Assembly: GCF_029227915.1 (NCBI RefSeq) | Contig: NC_079886.1 | Span: 17,336,501 to 17,400,500 of the forward strand | Direction: 5' to 3' | DNA length: 64,000 bases | Source of the DNA: Hydractinia symbiolongicarpus | Taxonomy: Eukaryota > Cnidaria > Hydrozoa > Anthoathecata > Hydractiniidae | In this document: positions 6,187 through 56,100 of the stretch, in pieces | Numbering within the stretch: the stretch's first letter is position 1 | Layout of the letters: every line of letters begins with the position of its first letter | Program-made: the position numbers and the translations under genes | Notes under the pieces: generated by a model | What the model was told of the DNA's origin: nothing | The model's database searches: none | The model's input: only the letters and a program-made list of their open reading frames with translations

Positions 6187-9100
6187 CTAAATAAAAACAT
6201 TACATTTAAATTCTACGAAAATTAAAAAAATAACATGTTTCATTATTGGGTGGTCACTAGCTAAAAATATAAAACAATAAGCCTAACTCCATATCTTTTA
6301 TCGTTCCGCGAAATACGTATGCAAAAATGCAGAATAACATTAAAACATTAATAGTTAAAAGCAAATTTCAGAATGCTAGTTGTTTACATTCAAGTTTTAA
6401 GAATGTGTGAACAAAATGTTGGCTTTGACAACTTTTAACCAGCAGTTTTACGAAATCGTAATTAGCACAGTTATGAAGACGGCATTGGCAAGCATTTTTA
6501 TCGGCAAAATTTTCTTGTGGAATTTTCTACATTTTAGGCAAAATGTCAGAACAGTTCGAGTAACCATGCATGGAAAAGCACTTGCCTTGTAGCACTTTAC
6601 TACTAAGAACGAGGCTTTAAAGTCCAATTTGGTGGGGACTCCAATGAGAAATTCAATTTTATATCCTAATTCTAAAACATCACTAATTTTGAAAAAAGCT
6701 TGAAATTTCATAATTGTTTGGAATGAAACAACTAGCTATGTGTCAAGAACAATAAACAAATCATTATACCAGCCTAGTGTCTGGCAGATATTTGCTATTA
6801 TCCCATATTACCGAATGTTAATAATTAGACTGTATCACAAATTAACCATATGTGCACAACTTTACTGCAAACTAAAAATTTGAAAATAATTAATATTGTT
6901 CTCATGTTATTCTGAGTTTTCGTATGTGTATATCGTGGATATCGAAAAAGGATTTTCTACCAGCATTTGGGCAGAGAGATAAACCAATCATATTCTACGC
7001 TACGATAAAAAGCTTAAGCACTCGTTTTCATGTCAAATTTGTACATTTAGTTCCTGAAATGTCAATAATGTCATGTCCCGAAACGACAACAAAATGTGCA
7101 GTATTTCACAACAGTGTCAATTTGAATATGAGACTAAAAAACAGCAGACACAATACAACAATTAAGTCACTCTCTCTGCGTACTTATCAATTTATACAAT
7201 CAAAAAATTTAAGCTTTACCACAAAATGCACACTTACACAACTATCAAGCTCGTTTCAATGTAACTGGATGGATCTCCCTTTAGTGGTAGCACTGTAAAA
7301 AACCCACTAACAATTAATAATTTAGCAAATATAACAATGCTAAATACAAAATAGAACTAAGTTATTAATTCGAGATTCAAAGTATTAACTCACAAACTCT
7401 AATATGCACACAAAAGATAATTATTCAAATTTGAAGCTTACAATCTTATAAATTATGAATATGTGCCACATGACAATGTAAACAGTTTTTAAAACAAATG
7501 GCAGGCCTTTAGGTTCTGTATCATATTCGAACTACGAATTTTCATTATGCAGTTGTTTGAACTAAAATTTGTTGCAGACCATATATAACTGCCTTAGATC
7601 ATTTATTTATTGTTATGAAAATTGAGTTACCATCAGTTGACCGGTATTGACCAAAAGCTTGTTCTTTGGGTATTTCCGGATACAAGTAAGTCAAAATCGG
7701 CAGATCGAATATTCTAGAAAGTTTAGAACTCAATAAGATTTCATATGGTATAATGTAAAACATTTTTAAGTATGAAAAAATAAGGTTTCTGTCCTAAACT
7801 CATAGAAAGACTTAATGCACACTCGTCCCATATATATTTGTACTTGAAATAGGGCTTCACACCAGTGCTTTAGGTAGGCGCAGAACAACATTAAAACAAC
7901 AATCCATTTTACCTATCAGCTAGGCCTCGAATAACGAAATCCTTTGTACTCCATGGTTGTAGGAATTGAATTTCTTTATAACCTATAACACAAAATGTCT
8001 AGTAACACAACATCCATGCTAAGTAACTTCTGACAAGTTCCAAATACAATCAAATTTGGTACAATTGTATCATATCATAAAAAGCACAGAATGACTTTTT
8101 GTGTAACGTCATAACATTCGGTTTTATAGATGTAGAAAGGTAATAATGTCCAAAATCCATTTTCTTACAAACTTAGGGTAAAATCTACACCCCCCAACTC
8201 CCCCCCCCAAAAAAAAAACCCCCATATTCTATAAATATCCGCGATTCCCCATGATGCAATAAAGTTACACAAAGGGTAGGTTCTAGTAATACTCAATATC
8301 AATGTGAAAAAATAGCAAAAATCAAAAATACGAAAAACCAGCAAGTATCATAGTTAATGCAACATAACAGAAAATAGTTATCCTAAAAAAATTTGAAAAT
8401 TACTCTGATATATATTTGTGTGTTTTGTTCACAATCAGGCATTATAGTTTTGGCTGATTTCTGCTGGTGTTGCTGCCATTAATTTATTTTTTTTGCTTTT
8501 AAGGGCATAGCCTAAGATCATTTGTGCCATCACTAGTTAAAGATGCTAGGTCTATGTTTGTCTTCCTTTCCTTCCCCTCAAAATATTGTTTTTTGTTGCA
8601 TATGCTAACTGCTTCTTACGATCTGGAACATTTCATTACTTAGAGCAAATCTGTTTTTCCGCAAGGCACAAATTTAAATATATATGTCTTCTTTTAATAA
8701 GACACGGCTAAGAAACATAAAGAAAGCATAAGAAAACATAACACCATTATAAAACATATCCAAAGTTAAGAATGTTCGTATAAAAATGGCCTATTCTGCT
8801 TCAGTAGGACCCTCTTCAATGTTTCTTTAAGTTAAAAATCTGAACAGCTTCTTGTTTGTCATGCCAACCCCCTTCAGCAATATTTGTAAAATAAAGTCCC
8901 GCAACTACTGTTACAGTCTCTGTACCCGACACAGAATAATGTTCGCCTGGCTAGTGTTGCAATAATATTGTTGATAGTAAGCCTGTTTTACGCTAATTGT
9001 GAGTAATAATATACCTAGATAAAAAATGGGAAAACTGTTCTTTACACAGGCCAACATTAGTAAGTCCAAAGCCCAAAAATTACCTCTTTGTTCACTACAA

Positions 9101-23365: not shown

Positions 23366-26300
23366 GGGATCGTCTCAAAATGTTCGTACGTTTTTTTCGT
23401 ATAATTATACGAACGCTACGAAGTACTTCGTTTCGTGAAACGAATGTCATACGAAGTGCTTCGTTTAAAATAAAAAATATAAACGAAGTTTATACGAACT
23501 TTTTTAATACATGATACGAACTTAAACGAAGTTTTTTTATCATACAAAATAAAATGATACGAACTTTGAACGAAGTAAATTGCTATACGATCTTGAAACG
23601 AACTTCAAAAGTACCGGCGTAATAGCGCGTAATTATTTCAATACAAAATCAGAAACAAAAGAATTAAACGAAGTTTTTTTGACATAGGAAAAGAAATGAT
23701 ACGAACTTTAAACGAAGTAAATTGCTATACGAACTTAAAACGAACTTCAAAAGTACCGGCGTAATTGCGCATAATTATTTCAATACGAAACCAGAAATAA
23801 AAGAAGTAAAATATACGATTTATTTTAATAGTTTCAACCAAACTTAAATTTAATATCAAGCATTTGTATTTCCTTTTTAAAATATCGAATTTAATTAAAT
23901 TAAACAGTTTTTTTTAAAACTAGCTACTTTCATAGCATGTCTAAAAATTACGACAGTGATATCGATTGGATATATGACACAGCCAGTTCCGACGACGAGA
24001 CTGATTTGTTGCAAAGTATATATTTTTTTATTTTTTTCTCCCCTTTTTTTAAACTCTTAAATTTATTAATGTAGTTAAAATTCAATTTACTTATTTTTTT
24101 AGATAAAAATAAAAGACGAGGAAGACCAAGCATACACGAGAAATATCCGGAAATAATTACTTGTGTCAAGACGTTGATAGAACAGGGTTCTGCTGAAGCT
24201 CACTTACGTCGGAGAGACAGTGTTATGTACACAAATGGGCTTTCTTTGAATGATATCGTTATGCACGTCAAAAAAACCTTGGGTATAACTGTTAGTCGCC
24301 ACACCATTCACAGATTAATGCTTCCACCCCGAAAAAAAAACACAGCGAGTAAAAACTACAAATGTCTGATAGACGCACGTGTTCCTCCATAAAGAAATAC
24401 AAAAGAAAAAAAAACACACGACGACTTTCATTTCACTTGCGGTCAAGTTCGCATAGTTAACGAAATGGGATATCTTTGCAAAGAAAACACACTTATGCTG
24501 TCCGTAGACAATAAAAATAAAGTTGATGTGGGTATTCCAGCGAACAGCAGACGAACGAAAATACGCACTTTTCATTTGGTTAACGAAGCACCAAATTATA
24601 ATGATCACGATTTTCCAAATCCAAACTCAAAGCTTGTGCCTGCTGGCTACCAAATACTAAAGGACCGAATACAGCGGAGTCGTTCTCTTTCTCCTGCAAA
24701 GAAAATTACTTTTCGACGCAAGCGATCTTTATCCGAAGGATCAAACATTGACAACCAACTCAAACGATTTGTAAGAATATCGAAAGACAAGTTGAATCGT
24801 TCAATAATAAACTGGCCGCGTTCTGGAAAACTTCTGGTGCAGTTGTATCCATCGCGTCTTATTGAAAGCACCAACGTGATGCACGTCAATCATATGATAA
24901 ATTTGATTGAAAAAGAAAGAAAAATAAAAGAAATCGTTAATGTTGTTGCGATTGCTGACGGAGGCCCTGACTGGTCAGTTAAGGGCATTATTAATTTCAT
25001 GTCTATGGGTTTGCTGTGGAGAAATCTTGAGCTCGACACATTTGTTGTACAATCATACGCACCTGGTCACTCAAGATTTAATCCCATTGAGAGATGCTGG
25101 TCTTACCTGACTAACAGGATCTCAACAGTAACTTTGCCAGACGATATTGAAGGAGTAACACCACATCAAAATGACGTTGAGGGGTGGATGAAAGTTCTGG
25201 ACAGAGCTGTCGATTTGTGTGCTCGATTTTGGCATAATAAGACCTATTGTGGATTCCCCATAGCTGTGGAAACATTAATGTTAATGTCGCGCCCGAAGAA
25301 ATGCAACCTCCGCAAATTTCCTACATGCATTTACTGGAAAATCCCATGACTACTGACCCAACCACATTTCAGCTTTTTACTGAAATGAATGATCCAGTTA
25401 ACTCGACGCCACTTCCAAAAAAAAGAAAAATAAATTCTTGTGCTTGTTATATAAAACAGCAACTGCAAGCGTTGTATACCGAGGAAGAGCTAGCGGTAGG
25501 AAGAATACAAGGTGGTGTTCGAAATTACCAAACAGGAGCGTTAAACACTTCTTCCCTCTCTCCGAATCGTATGAGTGTTATAGTGCGTCAAGCAAAAAAA
25601 CGGTACAGCGATGAATTTATGGAAATGAAAAATTTAAATGAAATTGTGAACTCAAAATGCAGACAAGTAAAACGAAAATTAATCGCCAAACAAAAAGCCA
25701 GAGACAATGTTTAATGTTTTTAAAAGTATTTTATCGTTGCGTTTTTAGAAAAATTTGTATATATTTTAACCACTGTTTGTATATATTTTAGCATATTTTA
25801 GCACAGTTGGTATATATATTTTTATTGCAAAAAAAGCAAAAAAACAATAAAAAAAATAGCAACTGAAATTATTTTTACCTATTCACCAATAAAATTGTGC
25901 CGTGACAAGATAAACAAACATAAAAAAACATGCATGCAACCTGAAAGCATATTGCAACGCGTAACGAAGCCAAAGTTGTTATTATTAAAAGGATAAAAAG
26001 TTTACACTTCATACAAAATTTAAAATCTATATTTAAAGTTGGAGCCTGGTTTATTCTTATGATATTCTTAACTTTTGACCCGTTTTGCATCCTCGATATT
26101 CCTACAGAAAATTCTTGTAGAAAAACGTGAAATAATACGCAATGATAGGGCGAGCAATATTATTTAAACTTATTTTATCTAATTCAAGTGGAAGCAATAT
26201 TTTAAAACATATTATTTAATTCTAACTAAATAAAGTTTTTTTTTTTTTCGAAATAAGATGCAGTAAAGATAGCGCAATAAACTTAGTAAACAAAACAAAG

Positions 26301-32487: not shown

Positions 32488-34522
32488 GTAGCCTGTTGCT
32501 TTAGCCTCGATTGTGACACGTTCTGCCCAATGAAAGCACAGAGTCGAAAGTGAATAATTAAATTCAGTAATAATTAAACGCTAATTCATGATAGTCTTTT
32601 CTCAGAAATATCAACTCTACCACCCGGGGTAGCTTTACATCCCCGTGTCTCAAACCTGGATTCCAGGGCCACAGTTTTTCAAAAGGTGTATAAAATACAT
32701 CGTCCGCAAATACATCATAATATATCATAATAAACGTATAATACACTGTGTTTACAATTGAGCACTTGTTCAAAGTCAAAGGAGGTGAAAGCGCAAAGCA
32801 GTTTAAAAAAAACACAAAAATGTTTAATTCATTTCTCAACCTAGATCCAGGGCCTGTAGGGTTTTTTGATATGAGGATCAAATAAAAAAACGCTACAGGT
32901 CCTGGGATCGGGGGTTATATTTATTTGTTTTTATCTGTTGTTAACACTCATATACTTACCATATACCACTGGGCATCTTTTCTGACATCGGGCCGCGGTA
33001 CTTATTGTTTATCCCTTTTCAGGGCAACCTTGTCCCCAGGACTATAGCTTTAACTGCGCAGTCAAAGTAACAGGGTTAGGGGGGGGGGGGGTCAATGCAA
33101 GCGCCCTTCGATGAAAAAAAGAAAACAAGAGGCGTTGTTGAAGAATGTGAATGCAATTGCAGCGGTTAAGGCGGAAGAGGGCGTTCTTTTCCGCACCTTT
33201 CCCTAGCTCGTCCACACCGTCTCGTGGGCCCTCGTGTGTCATTACATCAAAGGAAAAAATGTCCTGGAAACCAGGTTCTACCCAATATAAAAAAGCGAAT
33301 AGGGTCTCTTGGGACGAGGTTGGCCAATTTTAAAAAATGAAAAGTACATGACTTTTCGTAATTCCATACCAAATAGTAATTTTTAAAATTCAGGATAAAC
33401 AAGTTAGCTTAGGGGTTACTATGGAAATATAAGGGGTTGTTTCAAGGGGTATGTTGATTTTAAAAGAGGAAATAGACTACGGTGGATGGTTGATCAACAA
33501 GTTGTGACTATAAGGAAGTAGTTCATGAAACATGACACTAGTTACCTCTGAGGTTTTAATTTTTTAAATATCCGTATGTGTATTTTATGCTGACTGCAAA
33601 ATTTATGCTGACCCTTTAAAAAAACAAAACAAAACATGTTGTTGTTTTTGACGTTACGTGACATTTAGAAAGACATTTTAATAAAATGGATTAAAGGGGT
33701 TTCGAAACTATTCAATATGGTCAGCCCTAGCACATTCCGAAGAATGGCGTGTAATAAACGGACCCCTGAAGAGGTCAGCGTGCAAGAAATTATACACATA
33801 TAACCTAGACGTCGAGATGACCTGTTTATGAATAATTACTTTTTTAATGAATGAACTTTTTTAATGAATAATTACTTTTTTAAGATGAATTTGATACGTT
33901 TTTATTTTTATTTTTTTAAAAAAACAAAATTCCTTAACGGTCTGTAAAATATTTTAAATATCAGTAAATCGAAATTTTGTTTTAACGAGGAAACAGAGAC
34001 AACACGAGGAGCTGTATTTTTTTAAAACATGCTATGTTACTAGCCTAAAGAAGGTAATTAATACCTCTAAAAAGATTCTAAAGTCATTGTTGTTGCTTTG
34101 ACTGGCTTTATGTGCAATAAACTTGTATGCTTCTAATTTCGAAGGATAAAGTTAGAAAAGTTTAAAGTTTAATTTATTAAAAAGTTTATTTTAAAAACAG
34201 GGTAAGTGCTCACCCTCGTCCCCAGGGTTTTTTGTATTTTTGATATGAGAGTTTCACGAAACCAATTCGCCGACGCAATGTATTTTAGCATGCTTAACTT
34301 CGTTCTTTTTAAATTTTCTTTCTAGACATTCGCTTCGCCGAAAAATAGAAACAGCTCCTACTTTTGTACACATTAATCAATCAGAACGCAATCATCAGTA
34401 GAAAAACTTAGTACTGGAAAGAATTAGATATCTGCTTTGAAATACATATCTACAAAAGAGTGCTTACATTCAGCATTTTAATTTCGCGCCACTTTTTTTT
34501 ACTTGTGGAAATCAAAAAAAAT

Positions 34523-34592
34523 ATTTTGCAGTTAATTGGTCACCATTTTCCATTCTTGTGAATGGCAAATGGCGACCAATTAACTGCAAAAT
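34523..34592. repeat. Hairpin with 26-bp arms
   Basis: Arms 34523-34548 and 34567-34592 (starting ATTTTGCAGTTAATTGGTC) with a single mismatch and an 18-base loop that itself holds a short CCATT/AATGG pairing. Likely a small foldback element. Confidence 0.8.
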
Positions 34593-35059
34593 AGTCGACT
34601 CGTAGAAGTCCGCCTTAAGGTATCCTGACCAACCCTTCGTACCTTTTAAGTACAAGTCGATAAATAGCATCATGTCTGTCTCATCATAATGTCCCATGAA
34701 ATTTTAACAAGTAGAAATCGTCTGCATAAATATCAAAAGTAAGCACTACAAAAAATAATAGCATCACATTATTACTGCATAGATACTTCCTAATTTCACG
34801 GTATACGAGAAAAAGGTGCTATTCGTCAGTTGATGTAGTTACTGCGACATACAAACGAAACACTGCTGCACCATTTTTGTCTGATTATTAAGAATTTCCA
34901 TTTTTACCAACCTTATCTACAGGACATCTTGTATCTTATCTGATATCGAGACGGCGAGTTCATATCACCGTCTCGATAATTGAAGAGACAGTAGGCACTG
35001 GGAACGAGGTTGCATTTTCCAAATTTTTCCAATCAGAAACACCAATTTTGTTAACATGG

Positions 35060-35228
35060 GCGCCGGGCGCTCATACATATCCCCGACCGGTTCAAAACGC
35101 AAGATATGTTCAACGGGCTTGTTGAAAAAGATCCCTATCTATTGAAGCACGTGCCGAATCAATTCAACACCCAAGACATGTGCAACAAACCCGTTGAAAA
35201 GAACCCTAAGGTACACAAATATGTGTAA
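35060..35228 (+). pseudogene. Remnant of a TQDM-type ~35-residue repeat protein
   Basis: An open stretch ending in TAA at 35226 encodes two successive repeats, IPDRFKTQDMFNGLVEKDP and VPNQFNTQDMCNKPVEKNP, about 26-35 residues apart. I recognise this as resembling the KTQ(E/D)MC(D/N)KAVEK repeats of uncharacterised proteins; the resemblance is from memory and no function is known to me. No start codon is visible, so it is a fragment. It is the left edge of the compact island at 35.06-38.66 kb. Confidence 0.55.
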
Positions 35229-35284
35229 TATATAATAATAAAATGTGCATTAACTGTCAATATAGCTTAAAAAGTATTTTATTC

Positions 35285-35419
35285 ATGACCTTCTTGACCG
35301 CCATTGGTCTCTCCCTACCACTTATAACCCTGGCATGCGTACAGGAGGAGAGGGAGGGGTCAAATGAGCGGAGGATTAAGGACTTTGAGGACCGCCTTGA
35401 TGTCATAACAAATGAATGA
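35285..35419 (+). CDS. Small membrane protein, 44 residues (island ORF 1)
   Basis: MTFLTAIGLSLPLITLACVQ followed by a charged tail (EEREGSNERRIKDFEDR). One hydrophobic segment at residues 2-18 suggests a single-pass membrane or signal-anchored protein. Its TGA overlaps the ATG of the next ORF by 8 bases (ATGAATGA), which argues that both are real and co-transcribed. Intronless; function unknown. Confidence 0.5.
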   Translation: MTFLTAIGLSLPLITLACVQEEREGSNERRIKDFEDRLDVITNE

Positions 35420-35621
35420 GCATTGTAACGACTGTGAACGTATATTGGATGAGTATGATAGATGTACCTGCGGGCGTAGGTTTGTGGTAAGTGGTAAAAT
35501 GTTACATTGGTACTGCTACCATGAACGTATCACATATAACGGGGGAGGCTGCGTATGTACAATGACACGCAATTCTCTGCAGTCGTTCGAAATATACAAT
35601 AAAGAAGATGCTACAATTTGA
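35412..35621 (+). CDS. Cys-rich putative zinc-binding protein, 69 residues (island ORF 2)
   Basis: Cysteines are arranged CNDC near the start, CTC at about residues 18-20, a single C in WYCYH and CVC near residue 48. This pattern suits one or two small zinc-binding folds. Overlaps ORF 1 by 8 bases and ORF 3 by 14 bases. The frame is intact. I do not recognise the family; a transcriptional or nucleic-acid-binding role would be a guess. Confidence 0.6.
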   Translation: MNEHCNDCERILDEYDRCTCGRRFVVSGKMLHWYCYHERITYNGGGCVCTMTRNSLQSFEIYNKEDATI

Positions 35622-36186
35622 AAATGCGCTTGTCAATCCGAAATTATTCTACAATTTTGCCGCTACGTTTACAGATATTAATAATATCAACGTGGAATAC
35701 CTAACGGCATCAGATGCCATTCCTGCTAACGGAGGTAAGGACAAACAATATATAGTAGGGTACCATACACAAGATCTCGTGGTTGCCTTGACGGCGACAA
35801 CGCCGAAAATCTGGTCCGCACATGGGGTGACAAGGTATAACGCCAATGCAGTACCGGCAATGAGCCTTGATTTTGAGGAATACCCCGATTGGGTTGTAAA
35901 GTATCGAAAAATATGGCAAAAAATTGAAGATCTAATATCCTAGGAATTGACGACAGAGCCTGTTAAAAAAGACCGTTATGTGAATGCTAAACTCCAATAT
36001 TACAAGGATACAATTACCACCAAGTTCCAGGGTATGTCGGTACCCTGCGATGAGCCTTGTCAAGTCAGTGAAATTCTGGGTATTTCATCGGTATACATTC
36101 AAGGCGAAAACCACTACCCCCAGCTACATATCACGGAATGCTGATACGAAGACTTCAAAAAGGAATGGTTGTTAAGTGAGGATTAA
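35608..36186 (+). pseudogene. Island ORF 3, 192 codons with two in-frame stops
   Basis: Starts MLQFENALVNPKLFYN, 14 bases inside ORF 2. The same frame runs to TAA at 36184-36186 but is interrupted by TAG at 35941-35943 and TGA at 36142-36144. Sequence on both sides of each stop looks coding (YPDWVVKYRKIWQKIED before the first; VKKDRYVNAKLQYYKDT after it), and there is no frameshift. Either it is a recently decayed gene or the stops are read through; decay is simpler because neighbours are also broken. Soluble, mixed composition, no motif recognised. Confidence 0.65.
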
Positions 36187-36193
36187 AAAACCA

Positions 36194-36230
36194 TATATTT
36201 TATAGGGTCCGTATGACCCTATAAAATATA
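36194..36230. terminator. Perfect 16-bp-stem hairpin between convergent island genes
   Basis: TATATTTTATAGGGTC, loop CGTAT, then the exact complement. It sits 8 bases after the stop of rightward ORF 3 and about 70 bases before the end of leftward ORF 4, so it is placed like a bidirectional terminator or 3'-end element. The function is inferred from position and symmetry only. Confidence 0.6.
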
Positions 36231-36302
36231 ATACAAATTAAGGGTTGTAAACAGGAGGTGTCTCTACATAGTGCTTGCATACTGCACAGACTGAAGTTTT
36301 TT

Positions 36303-36905
36303 TTAAATTTCGTCTTTCCCCTCTTTCCAGCTTTTAGCAACCAACTGGGCTCTCTCCTGTTCGTTGATGGCATTCACGATCCTGTTAAAGCGCTGCCGTA
36401 TTTGCTCCTTAAGCAGCATATACCTCTCCTTTTCTCTACTGATCAAGCTGTACTCGTGGTCACTGATAATGCCGTTTTTCATTGCCTTGCTGATCAGATT
36501 TACAATCGAGTTTAGTTTCGCCTCCGCGAGTAGCCTTATACTATCATGTTTTTTGGACTTAACACGCAACCATTAAGAGGCGTTCCGGAGACCGGCCTGC
36601 CCTATTCCGGCGGCAATCGCAAGTCCCCCATGGCACAAGCTAGGGGTATCCCCAAACCTGAGGCCATGGCTCCAATCCTAATCCCTGACGTAATCACACT
36701 TTCGCCAAGCATACCAAGGTTGCGAAAGCGTACCCACGTATTGCGCATTTTAAATTTTCTTCCAAGTCTGCTCCTTTATTTCATCCCGGAGATATTGTTC
36801 AATTTCCTCGATTTTCCCGAGTCTGAAGACCTGTCCCTCATCCTGATCAGAGCCTTGCGCAGGTGCACTCGGTAAATTTTGGTACAGCTTAAATATATCG
36901 CTCAT
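36303..36905 (-). pseudogene. Island ORF 4, broken membrane-type protein
   Basis: The ATG at 36903-36905 overlaps the TGA of ORF 5 by 4 bases (ATGA). The N-terminal frame (MSDIFKLYQNLPSAPAQ; later FRLGKIEEIEQYL) stops near 36750. A middle frame gives a small-residue hydrophobic stretch (GIRIGAMASGLGIPLACAMG), and a third frame gives a charged helical C-terminus (KKHDSIRLLAEAKLNSI) to 36303. At least two frameshifts are needed. The overall plan, short N-tail, Gly/Ala-rich membrane segment and coiled C-terminus, resembles uncharacterised membrane proteins I associate with viral or transposon gene blocks in cnidarian genomes (from memory). Confidence 0.6.
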
Positions 36906-37552
36906 TTATTCGATGAGAATGCACATCGTAAGGCCGCTGAACGTAACATTTTTTCATGGTGGAAGACGTCTGGTAAAAGGAACTCCAAACGGTCCGTGGA
37001 GCCTTTTAGTGGAAGGTATACAGGGGTATCAAAAGTCCAGGTCAACATATCCCCCCAGGCGTTCAATTCTTTGGTGGAAAGCAGGGCCAGAACCTTTAAT
37101 TTTTTGCCATCCAATAGACAGTCGTCTCCATCCAATTGTGGACAAATAAGTCTCAATTTCTGATATGTATCGGTCCTGTATAAACTGTCGTAGTTACCCT
37201 TCATATAATACTTTTTTGCAGGGTCATAGGGTAGGCCTAGGAGCTCCTGAAATGGTTGATGAATCACCACCGAGTACCCCTCGTTGACACGGAGCCTACA
37301 GTAGCCATTTTTCAATAAGAAAAGCTTGATCTTGTCCTCTGCCTGGCTGTTGACAGCAGCCGCGATATCCTCAATCCTATACAAACCATTCACAATAGAA
37401 ATGCATCCTCTGATCAGGTCCCTGATACTGATCGATTTCAAGTCAATGCGAGTGTCCTGTCCCAGGTAGTCATCGAAAATCGTAGGTTTATCGATATCAG
37501 TGATGTACAGTTGTTTTATTCCCTTTCTTTTAACAAGAAAAGGAATGAACAT
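36902..37552 (-). CDS. Island ORF 5, intact 216-residue protein of unknown function
   Basis: The only long intact frame in the island. It starts MFIPFLVKRKGIKQLYITDID. Later segments include RDLIRGCISIVNGLYRIEDI, YDPAKKYYMKGNYDSLYRT and LLSTKELNAWGDMLTWTFD. It is mostly soluble alpha/beta-looking with no signal peptide or membrane helix, and has no catalytic motif I can name. It is divergent from ORF 6 across only 47 bases (37553-37599) and overlaps ORF 4 by ATGA. Base composition is visibly less AT-rich than the surrounding DNA, in line with a foreign origin. Confidence 0.7.
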   Translation of the reverse strand: MFIPFLVKRKGIKQLYITDIDKPTIFDDYLGQDTRIDLKSISIRDLIRGCISIVNGLYRIEDIAAAVNSQAEDKIKLFLLKNGYCRLRVNEGYSVVIHQPFQELLGLPYDPAKKYYMKGNYDSLYRTDTYQKLRLICPQLDGDDCLLDGKKLKVLALLSTKELNAWGDMLTWTFDTPVYLPLKGSTDRLEFLLPDVFHHEKMLRSAALRCAFSSNK

Positions 37553-37599
37553 TTACCAATACAATCACTCGGCAAAGTATAAAAGTAACAGAGGGGAGA
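37553..37599. promoter_or_regulatory. 47-bp divergent spacer between island ORFs 5 and 6
   Basis: Only 47 bases separate two divergent starts, so it must contain, or be close to, any start signals for both if they are autonomous genes. It contains AAGTATAAAAGTAAC, a TATA-like word for the rightward gene. Confidence 0.4.
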
Positions 37600-38657
37600 A
37601 TGGCCACTTGGTGTTACAAATTTGGAGCACCAGGACCTCTACGTGAGTACGGAGTCCCATATTTCTGTGGCATTTCCGGAGTTCACGAAGTACGCCATCA
37701 AGGTCCCAACGACCTATCTCAATGACCCTGTTAGTGTGGGGTGGAAAGGGCAAGCGTTGGATTACTGGAATATTCAGGTAAATTTCTCCACCCATTGCAC
37801 AACAGCCCTAGGCATCTTTACCAAGCACATGACGGGCTCGGTACCCCTTATCAACTCGATTTTTAAATTCCATGCCTGTTACCATATGCGTCGCATCCTG
37901 GCAAGGATAAAGGTACCCATGCCGTAAGACGATGGGTTCAAACAGTATAAAAATCCCTAATCCACATCTGGATACATCCAAGTATGCCGCGAATATGGTG
38001 CGGATCCCAATTGCATGTACAAGTTTAAAGCAGTCATGTCGTCACTCACGAATGGTAGATGGTGGCGAAGGTTGACGGTGATTGGGGCAAATTTGTCATG
38101 CCGACAAGCCAAGGTCTAACATCGGAGGGTCTGAATAAGCTGAGTGAGAGTATCAGGGTTTACGTGGTCTTGTTTCTGGGATCACAAGCAAGGGTCAGAC
38201 ATCCTTAATAAGCCATGACATCACAGAATTCCAGAAGGTATTGCAATATAGTAGAACTCCGGTGAACTTTGCCGTCATGCACCATGTGTACATGCTATCA
38301 TCCGATAGGAACCTGCGAAAAGGCAAAATCGTGGGGTACAACAACAATATTTTGATCGCACCCGCAAATGCAATGATCAGTATACGACTTGACCTGAATA
38401 ACAAGCCTTTTGTGCAGCATGCCACGCCTCCTATACATACCATACCACCTACACCTGGAAAGCATGCCACCAGACATTTGGCATCTGCCAAATCACCCCC
38501 TAGTCATACAACACCTATTACACCTACCATGCATACCCCAGATATACATGTACATTTCACGCCCCATATAACTGAACAACCCCCACAATATCAACACGAA
38601 GATACCAAGGTCTCATTAATCACCATAGGAGCATTGTGCATTTCTTTGGCGAGATAA
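37600..38657 (+). pseudogene. Island ORF 6, about 350-codon protein, several breaks
   Basis: Starts MATWCYKFGAPGP at 37600, then shifts frame near 37635 into YVSTESHISVAFPEFTKYAI. In-frame TAA codons occur just after KVPMP (37926) and after DDGFKQYKNP; further shifts lie between about 38040 and 38200. The last frame carries VNFAVMHHVYMLSSD and KIVGYNNNILIAP, then a Pro/Thr/His-rich tail and a short hydrophobic C-terminus. The body is rich in beta-type sequence with no enzymatic motif; a structural (capsid-like) role is conceivable but unproven. I describe the pieces only and do not reconstruct the protein. Confidence 0.6.
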
Positions 38658-38692
38658 TTATGTTGAGCATCCTTAATACAAAGTAGCTATTA

Positions 38693-38885
38693 TTATAGAC
38701 TAGTCGTTAACCCGTGGAAAAATCCATGGGGTTGCCCTCCTTTAAATTTACTCGTCGCAAAATATATCGCATTTGATATTCGTGTTGCCGAGTGTGACAA
38801 AATTTGGCTATTATTAAAGAGATATAGGTAGCTCGTGGATAAACCCACGTTTTGGCCAGTTCTTTTTATATCACATTTCGTGTGT
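38693..38885 (+). repeat. Dispersed repeat copy 2 (ACTAGTCG... family)
   Basis: Begins ACTAGTCGTTAACCCGTGGA with a CCCGTGGAAAAATCCATGGG hairpin, and is followed at about 38823 by a second, related half (AGCTCGTGGATAAACCCACG...TTCTTTTTATATCACA). Related to 17737-17864. It abuts the right edge of the compact island. Confidence 0.6.
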
Positions 38886-39542
38886 TTGTAGCAAGAACAT
38901 TTTCTTTTCTTTTCTGGAGAAACAGAATACGGCTTTTATTAACATAGAGTTACTTTCAAACTTTTATTAGCACAAAAATCTTCTTTTTTCAAAAAGGTAT
39001 TTCAGTAAATGCGATCGTTTCATCCTATTATCAAAACGAGCAGCGGTTACAGCTCTTTTTGATTATGTTTAGGAATTATAAAACCTTTTGGATATATAAA
39101 AAGAATTTGTTTTTTTAATTATATATTGATATAAAAAAGATTATAGTTATAATGTATGGTGTTGTTATAAACTATTACATATAAAAAATTATACATTTTT
39201 TTTGGATTTATATTTACCATAAGGAATTAAAAAACTTAGTAGAGAATTAAAGGAATGTAATTTTTAAATCTCACTATTTTTCCAATAAACACCACAAAAA
39301 AAATAATAAAATTAAGATGCTTACAAACACAAAATCCTATAAAGTTTTACAAATTACAATGCCCTTTAATAGTTTCTCATTACAATTTTTAAAGCGCATA
39401 CCATTTTCTTGTTAGTGTCTAATAACCGTCAGGTGTTACGAAAGACAAGATGCTCAGGCCTGAATAAGGAGGTACTTAAATTTGCTAAGAAGTGAATTGA
39501 AGCGACCATTACCTTGAGTTCAAAACGTGCTCAAAAAATGCT
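38886..39542. other. AT-rich spacer downstream of the membrane protein gene
   Basis: No gene seen. It probably includes the 3' UTR of the leftward gene ending at 39543. Confidence 0.5.
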
Positions 39543-42500
39543 TTACCTCCTTATGCACCGTCCTATACATGTTTTTATTGCGAAAACTGTCATCCTCAAA
39601 ATAGTAACAACAACAATGACAATAATAATTAAGAACGGTGCTGTTAAAATGATATGTTGAATCCAAACACAAACTTTTGTGATTGCATTGATTCCTGGTA
39701 CACTTGATTGATCGTTCATGTAAACAAAAGCAAAAAACAAGTTCTCCACATTGATTATCAACAAAAATGACAATGAAATAGTTTCTAAGTGATTTAAAAA
39801 CTTGCTACGATATGGCGACACGTAAAGATGATGAACAAGGTAAGATAACAGCAAAGGTATCGTTAACATCATTCGTGCAACTGGATTCATCACAAAATTG
39901 CAAATGACGGCAATCAGTAACCGCCGAACAATTACTACCGACTCCCAATTTATTTGGCCAAATGTGCTCGATCTAAATGCACCTGTAAAGATTTCACATA
40001 TGCTTCGTATTTTTGTAAGTTCGTCGCTGGTGATATTCAATTTCACAGAATGACAAACACTGCGAAAATAAAAATAGAAGGAGGAGAGCGGAAAAGCCAA
40101 CGAAAAATAAAATCCTTTAACGCTTAGTTGTTTCCTTTGCAGCATTTTTATTGAAAGGTAAACTGAAACTCCAAATGGAAAAACCCATAACAGTGTTATG
40201 ATCAGAATGCAATATTGCCACCATGTGTAACATATAACGTCACCCTGGATAAACAAGTGCTTCTGGTTATTTATTTTTACACAATGGAGCAAGGTAAAAC
40301 AAAATGTGCTCACGCTCGTATAACCAAGTAAAGCGACTTGTATGAAGCAGTTTCGTATTTTGTCAATGACTTGACATTGGCTAAGATGTTCGAAACATTT
40401 TGATTTTGTCTTTCGTCTTATTTGACGAATGAAAAAAATGAGACCAACAGCAATAAGGAGCACCAACATAAGCATAAATACGTTGTTTACTTTGATTACT
40501 CGTTTAGAAACAGCATCAAGATTCTTGACGAAACAAATTTTCGATAGGTGTAATTGAATCAACTGAAGATTAAAAATGTTGGAGATTGTGGTTTTAAGTT
40601 GATGTAAATAACCGTAACTGTCTTGTTCTGTGGCTGGTATGTGTATTAAAAGTTCCATTTGGTAGAAAAAGAATACAATTGTTTTGATACCATAACCAAT
40701 CGCCTTAATTTCAGAACCAATAAATTTATTTATTTCGTTTATTTCCTCAGTTTTCTCCATTCTTTCCATGATCCTGTCTGAGAGAACTTCAAGACCGTAT
40801 TCATTATTAGCAATGGCTTCGTTCTCACTTTCTTCCTCGCTTTCGTCAAAAAGAGCATAGCTAAATGGATCTTCCCTGTAATTAAATATTTTTGTTTTGA
40901 ACAAAAAGAAAATTTTGTCTCTTTTGACAAAATATTTAGATATGATATTCACTAATAATGTTAACAGAGTCTTATAATACATCAGAAAAAGCACATAACA
41001 TGCGCTATAAAATGTGAGTAACAACCAAGATAAAACCATGTGGCAATCATTGTTCTTAATGCAATCTTCATTATAAAAATTCAGTCGAAACCCTTTTTTA
41101 CACGTTCCACATAAAATCCCTTCCCTGTGTTTGTTGCAGTCATTATAGGATTCACATTGATGTGAACAGCAATAATACGAAGGACATGGGAGAAAATATA
41201 CCTGAGACTCTGTACCCACATAGCCCCAAAAATTTGCTCGACTTCGAACTTTCTCCTCACATTTGCCTCCAGCAGGGCATTTAAAGCATGTAAAGTTGGA
41301 TTTCGTTGTAAGAAAAATATTTCTTTTTAGTCTAGATTTTCCTACAATCATGACTATACCTTTGTTTATGTTGTACATTCCTCTCGAGCATCGATGACAC
41401 TGAGCAGATGTTATTGATTCAGTGGTACTTAGAAGAAAAGAATCATAATTATTTGGACAGTAGAAACTCACATTCTGAAAGCCATTATGATGTCTATTCA
41501 AACCTTTTTCAAAACTAAAACCTTCAAGTATAGATGGCGCGTCTATTAATGAGTTTAATATCAAGAACTTTACATTTTTCAGAAGCGTAATAACGTTAGA
41601 TCGCAATAATAATCCGGTGATAAAAGTATTTGTAGCCGTGGCGTACATCACAGAATTATATATTTGCAGGTCCACATTATGAATGTTATATGAGCTGACA
41701 TATATGGCTCCACCAGAGTTGTTAGCGGCGTTGTAAAAAAATGTGCACTGTGTTATATATGTTTTGCTGAGTAAACTGTGAATGGCTCCTCCGTTACTAG
41801 CTGTATTGTTCGAAAAACTAGATTGTTGAACGTAAAGTTGACTGCGTCGACTTCTTATTGCACCTCCGTAAAAGCCTTGGTTATTTTTAAAAGAACACTT
41901 TATCACTTTGGCATTCTTAACATAGTTAAAATAAATGGAAGACTGTCTGTAATTTGATAAAGCTGATTCTGAAACTAGAACTGTTACGCAAAAGTTAATT
42001 AGCAACCCATACATCACAGAACGTTTTCTCAATTTATTTCCATAAAAAGTTGTATTAAAGATGTTAACCGATGAAACACAATTTTTATCAAAACTAATTA
42101 ATGGTCCTACTCCGGTTGAAATAGTGCTTTTCGTAATGCTAACGATTCCTGTTTTTGAAATATGTGTGATACTCATTATTGCCTTTTTTTCATCTCCTTC
42201 AAAAACACATTTATATATAACTAATCTAATGTGAACAGCTCGAGATAAAGAGATAGCTGTGACATTTTTAAAAGTAGTGTACGATATCCGAAGTTTAACG
42301 AATTTTGACCACCTTTTATATCTAACAGCGTACCGACGAATAACGGTAGTTGATGTACCGTTAAAGCTGCAATTAGAAATAGCTACGTCACAGCTTGTGT
42401 TGAACATCAGCAAAGGTGTGGATTGAAAGTCGATGTTTTCCACGCGGAGTGTTATTTTCTTTTTCCCAACACTTAAGAACATGTACTCTTTTATTGTTTG

Positions 42501-42905
42501 GTTTTGTTTTACCATGAATATAATAGGGCGAAAGAAACTGTTTTGGTAACTTTTAATAGAAATTTCATTTGCGATATGAATTGGTTTGTTTACAACATAC
42601 ACGTATGGTTTCTTTTCTCCTCCATCCAACCGAATGTGTTCTTCTGGTTTTATTTTGTAGGCAAATGTATATTGGAGAGATAAGCATGGAAGGAGGATTG
42701 TTCCACAGGACGCATCATCTTTTCCATTTCGTTGTGAAACGAAAGTATCGGCATCCACTGAAAATATTCAATAATTATCAAATAAAAATGTTAACTGAAA
42801 AGGCTTTAGTTAAAAAAATATATATTGACCTGAATATTTGCATAAAAATGTTAACGGAATAATGATATGGAAAAGCATTGCATAATGTTTCATCTCGACT
42901 GCCAT
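39543..42905 (-). CDS. Beta-helix/Cys-rich multi-pass membrane protein, two exons, about 1096 residues
   Basis: Exon 1 (42830-42905) starts MAVEMKHYAMLFHIIIPLTF, a clear signal peptide. A 72-base intron (gtcaat...ttttcag) joins it to one large exon (39543-42757) and restores the frame as YS-VDADTFVSQRNG. The ectodomain (to about residue 450) has repeated short strands with NNxGxxGGAI motifs, typical of right-handed parallel beta-helix proteins. Next comes a Cys-rich module (about 470-590: CPAGGKC, NFWGY, CPSYYCC, GILCGTCKKGF). The C-terminal part has roughly eight to nine hydrophobic helices, with a charged, Glu-rich loop (DESEEESENE) after the first. This architecture occurs in uncharacterised receptor-like proteins; ligand and signalling are unknown. 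The frame is fully intact. Confidence 0.85.
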
Positions 42906-46224: not shown

Positions 46225-48635
46225 TCACCAATCGCCAATTAAATGTTTCTGTATACGTTTCGTACGTCGCCAATCGTGGAATCCATTCAAGCCTTGATGA
46301 ATCGCGCACACCGTACCGATCCAAAACTTCTCCTTTTCGAGCAGGATTTCTCCGATCTTTTCGTTCGAAAGTTGATCAGTATTGTCCACATAATCGATCA
46401 GAATGAAGCGAAGAAATTTCGTTGGATTTTCGGCATCGTTGCAACATTCGATGAAGTGCTTGACAATTTGACAAGATTTAACTTGGTTCTTGATGTGGCT
46501 TTTGTAATTGGCCAAACGATGTTTCCAGCTGTTTGTGGAGCCAATGCCTTGTTTTTTGCATTTAAGACAATAGCACATGTATACGACGTGTTTGGTAGTA
46601 CAAGTGAGCTGTTTACGGATTTTGAAATGCTTCTTTGTAGCGTTGCAGGTAAAAGAGTCGACGTGATCAACAAAGTTGCTGCAAGAATCGCATTTCTTCT
46701 CACATGGTACGTATCCAGGATTTTCGTCGTCTTTTGTGGATCTCGTAGTATAAGGATCAGCTCGAACCATTAGTTGTTGCAGGTTTTTCAACGTTTTGTT
46801 GGCAACCATGATCGATCCACGTTGAAGCAAGCGTCGGTGAGTCGTATATCAAGTCAACGTGTTTCTTGACGATACTTTTGATATTCGGACCGCATGGATT
46901 GTATTCCGTAGAGAATATGGTCATTTTCGATTTGCTCTTGGTAGTTTTCTTGCCAGCTTCGGATCTTGTTTTTTGTTCAATCGCATTGAAGTTTTTTTTG
47001 ATGGCCTTCGGATCGTGATTACGAGCAGCAAGGTAAGCTTTGTATTCTTTCGCTTTTAGGTTGAATTCGTCATCTGAAGAGCAAATCCGACGCAATCGTG
47101 TAGCAACGCCAAGCGATATGCCATCTTTTAAGCGTTTTGGATGGCACGAGTTGCCGTGGAGATACATAAGACTACTTGTTGGTTTGCAGTATACTGATGT
47201 AGAAAGTTTTTTCTCCTTTATTTCGATCCGCAAATCAAGAAAACATATGGATTTCCCGCCGACTTCCATTGTGAACTCGATTCCAGGTGCTAAGGTGTTG
47301 ATGAAATCGAGAAATGTTCGTAAACGATTCGGATCGCCACACCAAAGGGACAAACAATCGTCGCGGTATCGACCAAAGTATTTGATCTCTGGAAATTCGT
47401 TATCCATTGTCGCAAGAACAGCATCATCAACGCATTTGATGGCGATGTCAGCGTATGAACAAGAGTTGGCAGCTCCCATGGCAGTTCCATTCGTTTGCAT
47501 GAGATGCTTTCCATCGAATGTAGAGTTGTTGTGCGTGAGGCAAATCTTCAGTGCTTCAACAAGGCAAACAGTTGAAGGTGATTGTTCTGCTCTGGTTTCA
47601 AGACAGCTACGTACAGCATTTATTCCTAAAGTGTTGTCGATGCTAGGGAACATGTTTACGATATCGAATGAGACAAGTATGGTGTTGTCGGTAATCGTTT
47701 TCGAATTCAAGTTGTCAATTATTTGCAAGAGATGTTGGGTATCTTTGATCCTTGTAGTAATCGATTCGGCCATTGGAGCACAATGTTTCTCAACAAAGAT
47801 TGCAAGATTCTCAATGGCGGTGTTGCATCCTGTAGTGAGGAGACGAACAGGTGTACCAGCTTTGTGTGTCTTGTAAAGGGTTGAATTTTTACCAGGTTGG
47901 GCGTTATCGTTGACAATGAAGTTAGCCCATTTGTAGGATAAATCGCCTTTGTTTTTCCATTTTGTAACAAAACGATCTACCACTTCAATGTGATTTTGTG
48001 TTGGATCGTTGTCAATCTCGATGAAGTTACTTCTTTCAATTTGTTGACGTGCCTTTTCACGATCTGTTGTTTTATTGACTAAGACGAAACGATTTCCCTT
48101 ATCTTGAATACGAAGGATAGTTTGGTTTTCGGGATCGTGCATGTGTTTAAAGCTTGTTTTTTCTCTCTTGTCAAATTTGATTGGTGTGGTTTTCTAGTCG
48201 TATCAGAAAAAAGATCATTTTCAAACCGACTCAAAAATGTCTCAAGTTCGTAGAAATTCGAACGAGGTGCGATGCTTGATACCGTTTTCTTTACGTAAGG
48301 TGGCAATATGGTATCTTTGGTCTGGTGTGGTTCATCTGTAGGTGTGTGGTTATGGTCTCAGAATGGAAGAAAGCTCGACTTCTTAATCTATGTTTGAAGT
48401 TATCGAAATCTTTAAGAAGCTGTAACCAATTCATACTGGACAGCGATGGAATGAGGGAAGGTCCTTTGCTGCAAAGAGATGACAAATTTGGATCGATGGG
48501 CTCATCAGTAAGGTTGATGGGTTCATGCGATGGTATTGGAATATCAGAAATAAGATTCTCTTTAGCGTTGGTTTTCCTTTTCCTTTCTTTTGCAACGATG
48601 TATAAATCAACGTTTGTAATTTGCTCGATCAACAT
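46225..48635 (-). pseudogene. Penelope-like retroelement: reverse transcriptase plus GIY-YIG endonuclease, frameshifted
   Basis: Four consecutive frames on the minus strand make one polyprotein with three frameshifts (near 48300, 48120 and 46800). N-terminus (to 48291): [14 protein letters not shown] and [12 protein letters not shown]. Middle (46757-48142): fingers/palm motifs LVSFDIVNMFPSIDN, GTAMGAANSCSYADI, GRYRDDCLSLW (catalytic Asp pair) and CFLDLRIEI. C-terminus (46225-46830): CxxC-rich then VYMCYCLKCKKQGIGST and WKHRLANYKSH, a GIY-YIG endonuclease. This domain pairing is diagnostic of Penelope-like elements. Inactive as read. The right end abuts a long (TA)n tract. Confidence 0.88.
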
Positions 48636-50170: not shown

Positions 50171-53100
50171 TCATGTTGAATTCTGGTCGGTTATGTGCAC
50201 AGTTACTTGTGTTGCTTGCAATCTTTTAATGGCATCTAAACAAGAATGTAGTTTATTCTGTTTTAGGTTACGCTCTGGAGAGATGTATTTTATAAATTTA
50301 TTGACGATGAAGTGTAAAGATTAAGTATAAAGAGCAATGTTTTAATAAATAGAATATTGGTGAATAAAGTTTTGAAAACATTTCGAGAATTTCCAATGAT
50401 AAACTTAAGTAAGTTTATATTTTAAATTGAAAATAAAATCTTAGGAAAAGAAGACTAGCGGCTATATTGTTAAATTGTAGCTATTAAAAAGAAGAAAATA
50501 AACGACCTAATGTTGCTTTCCTTGAGGAAATGAGGACATGGACCATTTAGATAAAGTCATTTGACATCAAAAATCAATGCTGACGTTATTATTTTTCCCC
50601 AAAAAAGGCTTTCAATTTTTTCATTATTTTAATTTATATATTACCTATTTTTCTTTTTATTTGTTAAACACAAGTATAATTATGTCAGAGTAGATAAAAA
50701 TCTATGTTACAGGTATTATACTGAAAAAAGGTTAAGTACAGCATATTAGTGCAAAAACAGTACGCAAATTCCTCAGTTAAAACATTAATAATGGCAACTT
50801 ACTTTTTTTGTGACAAAAATACAAAAAGGCTGCAACGATACCAAGGAAAAAACCAAGAACCAAAACAAGACATATAACGAGGATGTAGAGAGTTATTTTC
50901 GTACACTTTGGAAGATATTTCGGTTGCACAGTTAAAGGCGACATCGTGGTTAGTTGGCTGGGACACACTAAAATAGAAAAAGAATAATTTTTTTAATACA
51001 TACTACTGTTACTACTGGGTTTTGTATTTCCATGTTTATTACCATTTAAGCGTTCTCTTCCAGGACATAACTTTGCAGTGCTGTTGCATATAAACAATTG
51101 AAACCGCATATCCTTAGTGACGTTCACTCCTTCTGTGGAGTTCACACTCTCTATCGTTCCATCTGAAGTCGCTGCAAAAAAATATCTCTAGTAGCAAGCA
51201 TTCCACATAACACAATAAGAATATTTATAGCTAAAACTCGCAAAAAAATGTGGCCGTTTCGTGGGAAGCAACGAAAAACCAATGCTTGCACCGGAGGGAG
51301 GTTTTGAAATAGGACTTCTGGCCGGAAAACGAATATGAATTTAAAAAAATAGGTGCAAAGGTTTGGTTTTAAAGGGACAAGGAAGCGTTATTGTCAGTTT
51401 ATAAATACAATATAAACTGTTTTATCTATCCCTTCCGAAAAGTACTACCTTCGGTCAGCGTTTCGATCTCGAAAGGTCGGTCTATACTTTTGACCTCGGA
51501 TATGTTTCTAGATAAAACAGTTTATATTGCATTGTGAAACATAATATTGTTCCAAAAGTGAAAGGCTGATATATCGAATATGTATAACGCTTATACGATG
51601 TCAGGTAGATGAAGAGAATTGAAAAGATTGATTTGTCGCACCACTTTGTTAGGGTTTTCAGTGCATTAAAATATTTTTTTTAAGTAAAAAGAAATAAAAG
51701 AAAGAAATGAACTTACTGAAAAAATAAAAAGTCTTTCCATACTTATTTTCCCACTCATTGATATCTCCTCTAAATTTTGACATAAGCGAAAATGAAACCA
51801 ACATCAAATGGGCTTCGTTATTTTCCACAACTTGTTTCACTTGACATGTGTAAATTTTTTTGGATTTTCGTCCATCTCTTTTAACATATGTTTGAATATC
51901 CGACGTAACAAACATGTTGTAATAAAATTTTTCCGGATTTATTATTTTATCAGTGAATGTATTCAAAATTCTTGGACTTCCACACACAACTGTGACTGTG
52001 TCGTCAATATAAGCACTGAACTTTCTTGATGTATATCCACATTTAGTATTGTTAAATCTAAAGGTAAGAAATGCTAAACAACACACGAATAGAAAAATAA
52101 TGACTAAATGAATGACACTCTTTCACTTCCGTTCGTCTCAAGGTAGTTTCCTTGAAAAAAGATCTTAAAGGACTGTGTTCTAAGAAGGTAATTGACAAGA
52201 ATATCATAGTATGCGAAAGCACGACAAAATTAGGCCAAAAATTCATTCGATTGATTTCCACGGTTACCTGTTGCTAGACAAAATATGACAATTTAAACCC
52301 CAAAGCTAAACTAAATAAATACCGCAGCGACTTCAAGCGCGTTTTATTTATTATTTATTATTAGAACTTTATTTGCAGTTGACAAATACTGCAAATATAT
52401 ACATTCATGTACATTTTACATAGCTGTACTCAGTAAGTGCGCTAATTTACGTCAACTATATATATATACATCATAGAAAAGTAAATATTAGACATAAAAA
52501 TTTAAATGCAAAAAGAAAAGTTAAAACAAATTTTTTTTTGTTTTCTGTTTTTTCCACTCTGGTTTAAATACTAAGAAACAAAAACAGAGAGAGCGACTCA
52601 GTTACGTAATCCAAATAGAACAAATTAAAGGACACCAACACCCTCTACGAATTTTAAATTCGCTAACTGTTCGGAAATTATTGGCCGATGCAGATCTTAA
52701 TTCAAAGACTTGACTTACGAGAACTGGTGCCAAATTATTTTTTACTTTATATAGTTCTACCATTAGAGCCTGGATGTTCCTAACATGGATAGAGACAGGT
52801 GTGTCTTTTATGAGCAATTCACTAAAAGATGACTCCTCATCATTGTGCACCATGCAAAGGGAACGTTCATGTAGTCGATTTATTCGATTATTATAGCTTC
52901 TATTACAACACATCCACACTAGTGGACAATAATTGAACAAGGACTTAAAGAAAGCATTTACGAGTGTTTTTCTTTTTTCAACACTCATTACAGGTATCCT
53001 TGCAACTGCGTTTAGTTTTTGAGAAGCTTTTTTGCTCTTCTAAGAGAAATTCGTATCTAAATTAATTCCAAGTAGTCTCTCAGATTGACTACTTTCAACG

Positions 53101-56100
53101 AGAGAATTATCGACAGTCATAACAGTCGTTTCTTTACTCCTGAGTGAAAGACGGCTTTAATTTGGGTTCGCCTTCATTTTGTTGTTGCTAAACCACTGAA
53201 AAAGGAGCTTTTGACGCTATGTGTAGTAAAACTAGCACAGAATTGATAGTTTCAGCAGTTGTATACGGGGTATTATCGTCCGCATAACTTACAAAACAAT
53301 GTCACTAATAATAAGAAACATATGGCACAAAAAGATGTTAAATAACAAAGGTCCCAATATGATACCCTGTGGTACGTCGAAAATTATTTCAAGCCAAGAA
53401 CTGAAAGTTGAACTAGCCCCCGTTCTCTGTTTAAAATTTGATAAATAGTCATGGATAAGTCTAACGGATAGTAGACTAAATCCATAAGCATTTAATTTAG
53501 CAACCAAAAGTTCGTGTGAGAGACACACAAAAGCCTTTGATAAGTTAGTAAGCAGAGCTCCGAAGTGATCTCCTTTGTCAGCAGCCTTTTTCCATTTCTC
53601 GAGCATAACAAGGGGGCATTGCTGGGCACTATAGCCTTTTCTGAAACCATATTGAAATTTAGACAAAATGTTGTCAAAAAACGTAGACATTTGATTATAA
53701 AGACACTTCTCAAATAATTTAGAGGTATTTGGAAGCACACTTACTGGCCTAAACTTTTCTTTTTCGTGCTTTGAGCCTTTCTTATGGACTGGTGTTACAT
53801 TTGCTAACTTACTCATCAGGAAACTTAGCGGTATCCACCGTGTTATTAAAGTATCTTGTCAAGTATTCTGAAAATATCTTCATTTTCTTTTTTTAGTTTC
53901 GTTGGAACATCTGATTTCTGTGTAGTTTTTCATGGATTGAGATTTCTTATTTCTCTTTGCATTTTCTCTTTTTCTACGTGAGAAAAGGAGAAATGTGAAA
54001 CCTTAACTTTCTTCTGTATTGCAAGAATGCTGGGATCATTTCAGAACTTGATGATTGCTTTTATTGTTTTATCACCTACATTTTAAAAAAAATCATCTTC
54101 GAGGGAATTGATGCGTACTTTCTAGGAAGAAAATAAGGTTAAAACAGGGAAAAACTTAACTCAGGTCTCAAAATTGACGAGTTCACATTTTAGGTCACAC
54201 CACTGCTTTGTAGTTACTTGTGGGTAAATTCAATTTAGTATTTCTAAGCATAATTTTGTGCTTAAAGCTAGCGGAAATGCCATGTATGGATCGAAACAAG
54301 CTTACGTATATTATAAGAAAATAATTTACAAAGCTAGCCACCGCAATGATGAACTCAACCTGTGAGGTCTTTGGAAACAAGACTACGGTCGTGAAATAGC
54401 AAGCTTGTTGCTCATGTCATAATCACTGATTTTTGAGGTCAACATCTAGTTCCAATTTCAACATTACAACGATTTCAGGTTTTATTTCTTACGTTATACG
54501 TTTTCGTTTCAACTGTTGAATTGTTTAAATTTTGTTTTTCTATTTGTGTTCTAAATTGATAAAAAACTTTCATCAACTTTGAAAACTCAACTTTTATGAC
54601 AGGAACGTATTTTTTTGAAGATAAAACTGGACTTATCTGTCTCGTACTCATCTGCAATAACATAATGTTTGTATGTAAGAATATCACCCAACAGAATCAA
54701 AAACATCATAACAATAAAAATGGAAATCATTTTCTTTCTCATTGAGATACGTCATATCGAACATTGGGTTGCTGATCGGAAACAAACTGGCACATTCATG
54801 GTTTCTTCATGCTAACATTAGGCGGCGCATTCAAAATTTAATCCAACATCGTAAACGTTCGATCTAATATGAAATGTTGGATGCATTTGACTCACAAATT
54901 TTGAAAATTAAAAAAGAAGAAAATAATCGTGTTAAATGATGAACTTTGAGATCGATCAAACTTAGGATGAACGATAATCGGTTTGGGGACACAGATAGGA
55001 CGAGAGATGACAAAAAAGAAGGCAACCAAGAAACGACAAGGTACTGATGAATTATCGAAAAGCAATTGGATTCATTACGACCAAATATCCTTTTCAGTTG
55101 CAGTTGCAAAAGCTAAGAGTATAGACACTTAAAAAAATTAGTTTACCAGAAGAGGATAGAGAAAGAGGTGTCAACTACAACAGCAGTACCTCAAAAACGT
55201 CGATTGCAGAAAAAACCCCGTAACAGCAAGAGCAGTTACTTCAGAAAAGAATAAATCGCCGCCACAAAAAAAAATTATTTTGCAATGTATGTGGACGAAA
55301 AATTATTGATTTTGAAAAAAAGCAGCAAACAAATTACGAAAAAACGCATATCTGACGGTCTATTTGAAGCTGAGATTTCATCGTACATATCAGAAGCAGG
55401 TGAAAGAAACCATTTTGAATATTATTATCGACCTGTGCAACAATTCATCGGCGCTCATCAGTCCCAACATCGGGCAGTTTTTTACTCCGAAATCTCATCA
55501 ACGTACAGAAACCCCAAGTAAAAATAGCTTTCAATATTCACCCCACAAGGCCAAGGTCAAGCATCATTCAGCCCGAACAAGGAGCACAAACTTACACGAT
55601 CATGATAAACAATAATTAGATATATTTTTGTTCTTATAGTTTCGATTACATTTTTCTTTAAAAGACCGGATAACAAAACAGTAATAGATAAACAAAATTA
55701 AACACATCTATTTTATTACTTCCAATTAGCAATACTTCCATTGCGATTTTCCCATTATTTATAAAAAAGTCTCTAACGGATTTGATATGCTAATTTGCAT
55801 TGTGTCTCCTTCAAGGAACTTCCAGGGAATAAAACGATTCAGTGGGGTTGTCAGAACGCCATCCGCCATCCGCAATTTCTCTGTCTCCCAAAATACTATT
55901 AGCAAAAAAAGTTAGGCTGAATTAGGGCTTTTGCTCAACATGTTGTGTAGCGTGAGTGTCAAAGGTTGACATCTTGAACATATTTTGGTTAAGATTAATA
56001 ATACTAAAAAAAATTCTGCATCTGTTTAGCCAAAATCTCAAACATAGTTTCAAAAATTCTACAAGCCCTACTATGTCTGCAGTTATAAACTCGCCTTTCT

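Follow-up and report, generated by a model that had tools for sequence, protein, structure and literature searches.

An island of overlapping reading frames in Hydractinia symbiolongicarpus: a probable dead fragment of a repeated Polinton/Maverick element

A 64,000-nucleotide stretch of the genome of the hydrozoan Hydractinia symbiolongicarpus (the window; C12:17336501-17400500) contains, at 35065..38642, a compact island of tightly packed open reading frames (ORFs). With a probability of about 0.94, the island comes from the interior of a highly repeated endogenous virus-like element of the Polinton/Maverick kind, as a dead fragment of 3.6 kb that has lost sequence at its left and right. A preliminary description had seen in it a decayed, virus-derived and mobile fragment, and this is borne out by the same gene order and by large numbers of protein and DNA matches elsewhere in the genome. 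The description had further considered the island to be of an unknown type or an unfamiliar group. This part has to be given up, for longer copies hold an integrase, a packaging ATPase, a polymerase and a candidate capsid gene, and the absence of these genes from the window copy is a result of truncation. The longer copies with replication genes that the description proposed to look for are present in the same genome, the polymerase being recognized by its motifs and the capsid gene as a candidate only.

Results

The assembly searched comprises 480.9 Mb in 76 contigs. The 216-amino-acid (aa) ORF of the island, here gene c3, has at least 267 matches at E ≤ 0.001, distributed on all 15 large contigs (C1-C15); the number is a lower bound, 150 of 1646 first-look candidates having been scored. 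The DNA of 34900-38900 gave at least 139 matches (40 of 3026 candidates scored), which, save the window itself and one short match, are confined to 35065-38632; a protein match of gene c1 carries the right limit of the fragment to 38642. Among the matches listed, the paralogues are 68-88% identical at the DNA level, short pieces excepted, and the top-scoring ones share 79-81% identity over 2.6-3.0 kb, with one 0.4-kb stretch at 88%. The identity of 79-81% to its best paralogues indicates that the window copy is old.

The composition of the island sets it apart from its surroundings, as noted earlier. Its guanine-plus-cytosine (GC) content is 0.439 over 35065-38632, compared with 0.346 in the left and 0.312 in the right flank, and the maximum among 267 other 3568-bp stretches of the window is 0.384. 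A GC content unlike the flanks, together with compact overlapping ORFs, could be taken as a sign that viral or prokaryotic DNA has contaminated the assembly. The many diverged copies, spread over the 15 large contigs at the DNA identities given above, argue strongly against this, and contamination is highly improbable. Since matches of c3 lie on every one of C1-C15, the island cannot be accounted for by one contaminant or by one spliced host gene. Where the preliminary description had left room for a lack of conserved order, a spliced host gene or contaminant DNA, conserved order and matches on C1-C15 were found instead.

Eight genomic copies were read, each in two separate pieces some 10 kb long, together with one further piece (pieces are designated by L numbers). 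ORF clustering demonstrates that the gene order is conserved over the eight copies, and the window matches it gene by gene in tblastn. The order is a left block followed by c4, c3, c1, c2, c0, c8, c7, BRO-N and related genes (c17, c24), c11, c35 and c16. Gene c7 encodes a retroviral-type (rve) integrase (Pfam rve, E 2.2e-11, 44.3 bits against a cut-off of 32.6) and c11 an A32-type packaging ATPase, of the FtsK/A32 kind known from Polintons (Pox_A32, E 6.3e-8, 32.8 bits against 22.8); each cluster is present in six of the eight copies. The product of c17 is a BRO-N/DUF3627 protein (Pfam E 1.5e-14, above cut-off). The copies are themselves damaged, and the capsid candidate c0 has no single open frame in any of its nine instances in the copy pieces.

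A polymerase was sought only in copies whose pieces extended far enough. The copy on C9 (L037) carries beyond c16 a 605-aa ORF with DANMLYPS, KLKGNSFYG and YMDTDS, which we take to be the palm motifs of a type-B DNA polymerase. A second polymerase, 24% identical to that of the C9 copy, lies beside the C2 copy (L022), with pieces that give sub-threshold DNA_pol_B_2 matches. The C9 copy also possesses 407-bp inverted repeats, 92.6% identical, and measures 18,079 bp end to end; the element begins with AG and ends with CT, and GAACA (5 bp) is found outside both ends. No such inverted-repeat ends occur in the piece pairs of the seven other copies, although those pieces mostly do not reach both ends. 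The locus on C2 (L021/L022, C2:20693200-20712500) has an arrangement of its own: two virion blocks of opposite orientation are placed head to head, and beyond them is a further element gene set with a different polymerase, that is, nested or rearranged Polintons.

Two kinds of left block were observed. At least one of the left genes of the window type (c15, a Cys-rich ORF, a small hydrophobic ORF and a DUF4116-like gene) is present in six of the eight copies, the copy on C8 being counted through one weak match only. In the two remaining copies (C9 and C6:7.44 Mb), this place is taken by ankyrin-type repeats and a 118-aa ORF that matches no Pfam family.

Gene c3 (36902..37552, minus strand) probably encodes the minor capsid (penton) protein, which in Polintons is a single jelly roll; this is judged from genome matches, alignment and a predicted structure. 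When the window protein was folded alone, the predicted local distance difference test (pLDDT) was 34. A relative modeled from 13 aligned copies gave a beta-strand-rich structure of low confidence (pLDDT 51.6). Compared with predicted viral structures, this model is closest to a putative minor capsid protein from Klosneuvirus (BFVD A0A1V0SJI8; E 9.6e-4, probability 0.98, TM-score 0.29 by query length, 15% identity). The second match is an unnamed protein (E 2.9e-3, probability 0.96). Lower matches, all insignificant, include proteins from Bodo saltans virus (rank 3), from a MELD virus (rank 4) and from the polinton-like virus TvV-S1 (rank 6).

The ratio of nonsynonymous to synonymous substitution (dN/dS) of c3 is 0.07-0.20 in five of the eight pairs that include the window copy, with dS from 0.57 to 2.58; the other three pairs are saturated. 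L034 was paired with other copies six times; the ratio was 0.04 and 0.09 in two of these pairs, three pairs were saturated, and the last sets the same locus against itself. Such low ratios imply that c3 had long evolved as a working protein before the window copy died. They could also be read as domestication, in which the host has retained the 216-aa ORF, the more so as these 216 aa stay open while the neighbors c15, c4 and c1 are broken. However, equally low ratios are seen in the other copies, so the constraint can date from the active life of the element. The window c3 moreover lacks an internal block present in its relatives, and many DNA matches break or restart near 37423 at this missing block; its end also differs from those of the relatives. 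When the island was resampled 1000 times with a first-order Markov model, 3 of the resamplings held an ORF of at least 216 aa. Domestication is accordingly given very little credence, and no present host function is indicated. The island is an ordinary decayed genomic fossil, inactive.

Several observations weigh against assignment to the Polintons. The window fragment has no integrase, polymerase, packaging genes or element ends, and its classification rests on its relatives; the C9 copy, which has the inverted repeats, carries a left block unlike that of the window copy. The match of c0, the candidate for the double jelly-roll major capsid protein of Polintons, to Pfam Capsid_N is sub-threshold (E 0.047), and c0 has no sequence match in the PDB. 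No Pfam or PDB match was obtained for the 605-aa polymerase ORF, and the confidence of the c3 model is low, as given above. No protease gene, such as that for the Ulp1-type (adenovirus-like) cysteine protease of Polintons, was recognized among those ORFs that were read or scanned. Finally, Polintons are usually flanked by a 6-bp repeat, compared with the 5 bp here.

The lack of a visible protease, an unproven capsid fold and the presence of TvV-S1 among the insignificant structural matches of c3 would be in keeping with a relative of polinton-like viruses or virophages that has neither a type-B polymerase nor an rve integrase of its own. Polinton-like viruses are, according to PMC11071308, mostly devoid of these two genes. 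Unlike them, the longer Hydractinia copies hold both an rve integrase and a polymerase with type-B motifs, which makes this origin improbable, if less so than contamination or domestication. A Polinton/Maverick origin is therefore preferred.

With the relatives as guides, the genes of the Polinton fragment can be followed through the window. The left edge cuts into DUF4116-like repeats, of which a remnant is left at 35070..35225 (plus strand; tblastn with the L030 relative, 42-46% identity); the Pfam DUF4116 match of this relative (E 7e-4) falls short of the curated cut-off. A small hydrophobic ORF (35243..35419, plus) and a small Cys-rich ORF, possibly zinc-binding (35412..35621, plus), are both open; their relatives in L022, L023, L031 and L034 are 50-72% (tblastn) and 66-81% identical, respectively, and the latter has a weak one in L028. 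Gene c15 (35608..36183, plus) has two in-frame stops and is 68% identical in tblastn to its L022 relative, which is open. Gene c4 (36273..36905, minus), for a helical protein with a hydrophobic stretch, has acquired stops and lost material (tblastn, 45% identity to an open relative in L036). Gene c1 runs through several frames at 37509..38657 (plus) with 49-78% identity to L026 in tblastn, the match reaching 38642 and the stop of the last piece lying at 38655-38657; when open, its relatives are about 390 aa with a hydrophobic C-terminal end. Long DNA matches are commonly split at 38205/38209, where other copies hold extra sequence. The right edge of the fragment is the place where c2 comes after c1 in other copies. 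In the remainder of the window, tblastn with 19 proteins from longer copies (E 0.001) revealed no element genes.

The earlier account of the layout holds in its geometry. The overlaps of 8 (35412-35419), 14 (35608-35621) and 4 bases (36902-36905) were all located, and the 47-bp divergent spacer is 37553-37599, between the start of the 216-aa ORF and the ATG at 37600. Nevertheless, the ORF from this ATG is in a frame different from that of c1, and from the tblastn alignment c1 seems to start near 37545, within the supposed spacer. The overlaps stand, but the ORFs need correction: tblastn with the relatives indicates that several of them are pieces of longer damaged genes, the damaged ones in the window copy being c15, c4, c3 and c1. 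The third, fifth and sixth ORFs, which had looked like families of their own, belong to the accessory and virion genes of the Hydractinia Polinton family.

The hairpin reported at the convergence of c15 and c4 is present at 36194..36230, where two 16-nt arms pair without a mismatch. Of the 21 distinct other copies examined, 7 have the same hairpin, which is conserved in the subfamily of the window copy. In eight sequences, pairing is kept in 92.3% of cells, compared with 31-70% when the partner is slid, and two pairs are changed on both sides; no measure is set clearly apart from shuffled columns in these eight sequences. The hairpin is probably a two-way signal for the end of transcription. 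Past c4, the copies L002, L007 and L012 have a different hairpin (near positions 419-493), its arms being TTTTGTGACT and close variants. These copies do not have the hairpin of the window copy, and theirs may be a signal of the same type that belongs to a different subfamily.

Other features of the window were also recorded. Just left of the fragment, at 34522-34593, a 34-bp inverted repeat encloses a loop of 4 bp and may be a small foldback element. Beside the right edge (38678-38780) are short stretches that are found again in L023, L030 and L034, where they lie outside the mapped Polinton genes; they represent a small dispersed repeat. The island is adjoined by a 1074-aa open frame (39543-42767, minus), probably a long host exon, whose Chlam_PMP repeats are weak (2.5e-5), and exons of a probable host STAT gene are found at 8911-11278 (minus; SH2 5.1e-7, STAT_linker 4e-12). 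Further mobile sequences comprise DDE transposase ORFs at 24075-25714 (plus; DDE_Tnp_ISAZ013, E 4.4e-8), remains of a reverse transcriptase of the non-LTR (long terminal repeat) type at 52602-53858 (minus; RVT_1, E 1.5e-15), and remnants of a DUF4371-domain transposase gene at 58985-61167 (plus; E 9.1e-16), the last presumably hAT-related. Two adjoining ORFs at 46225-48193 (minus) match no Pfam family at E 0.001; we take them to resemble a Penelope-like retroelement with a GIY-YIG-type end.

Discussion

The Hydractinia elements agree with Polintons/Mavericks (Polintoviricetes) in having an rve integrase, a packaging ATPase, type-B polymerase motifs and inverted repeats, in a length of about 18 kb (the C9 copy; Polintons measure 15-20 kb), in a probable minor capsid gene and in being repeated in an animal genome. 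They differ in lacking a visible protease, in the shorter flanking repeat and in their accessory genes, which encode BRO-N/DUF3627 proteins and DUF4116-like or ankyrin repeats. The likeness to named Polintons is one of gene set and layout. The Polinton layout published in PMC4028283 and PMC11071308 corresponds to that of the longer copies save for the protease and an unconfirmed major capsid fold.

The same two papers name polintons of Hydra and Nematostella, and Maverick repeats are stated in PMC13119343 to make up 0.75% of the genome of the related hydrozoan Podocoryna americana. The latter are elements of the same kind in a close relative. Because Polintons have been reported in these three animals, the kind is already known, and the Hydractinia family is at most a new member within it. 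No report on Hydractinia Polintons was found among the literature matches listed. In the genome paper of H. symbiolongicarpus (PMC10411563), the available part gives 48.11% of the assembly as unclassified repeats, and neither 'Polinton' nor 'Maverick' appears in that part of its main text.

From known Polinton biology, the element would have copied itself by its own protein-primed polymerase; its DNA would have been packaged in a capsid and then inserted by the integrase, with a short duplication of the target as a result. Kept in the window copy are the DUF4116-like remnant, the small hydrophobic and Cys-rich ORFs, c15, c4, c3 and c1; both ends and everything past c1 are lost. Deletion or recombination after insertion is the likeliest cause of the loss of the ends. 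Tentatively, there may have been at least two Polinton lineages with a common virion block and exchanged left blocks, one with ankyrin repeats and the 118-aa ORF and the other with the DUF4116-like, small hydrophobic and Cys-rich genes and c15. These lineages may long have spread as real, particle-forming viruses of hydrozoans, a suggestion based on the strong purifying selection on the probable minor capsid gene, with silent sites near saturation.

The window fragment alone has no special importance. The Polinton label can now be given to a repeat family of Hydractinia, a stem-cell model animal, and with many diverged copies that share a conserved virion block, the evolution of hydrozoan Polintons is traceable inside one genome.

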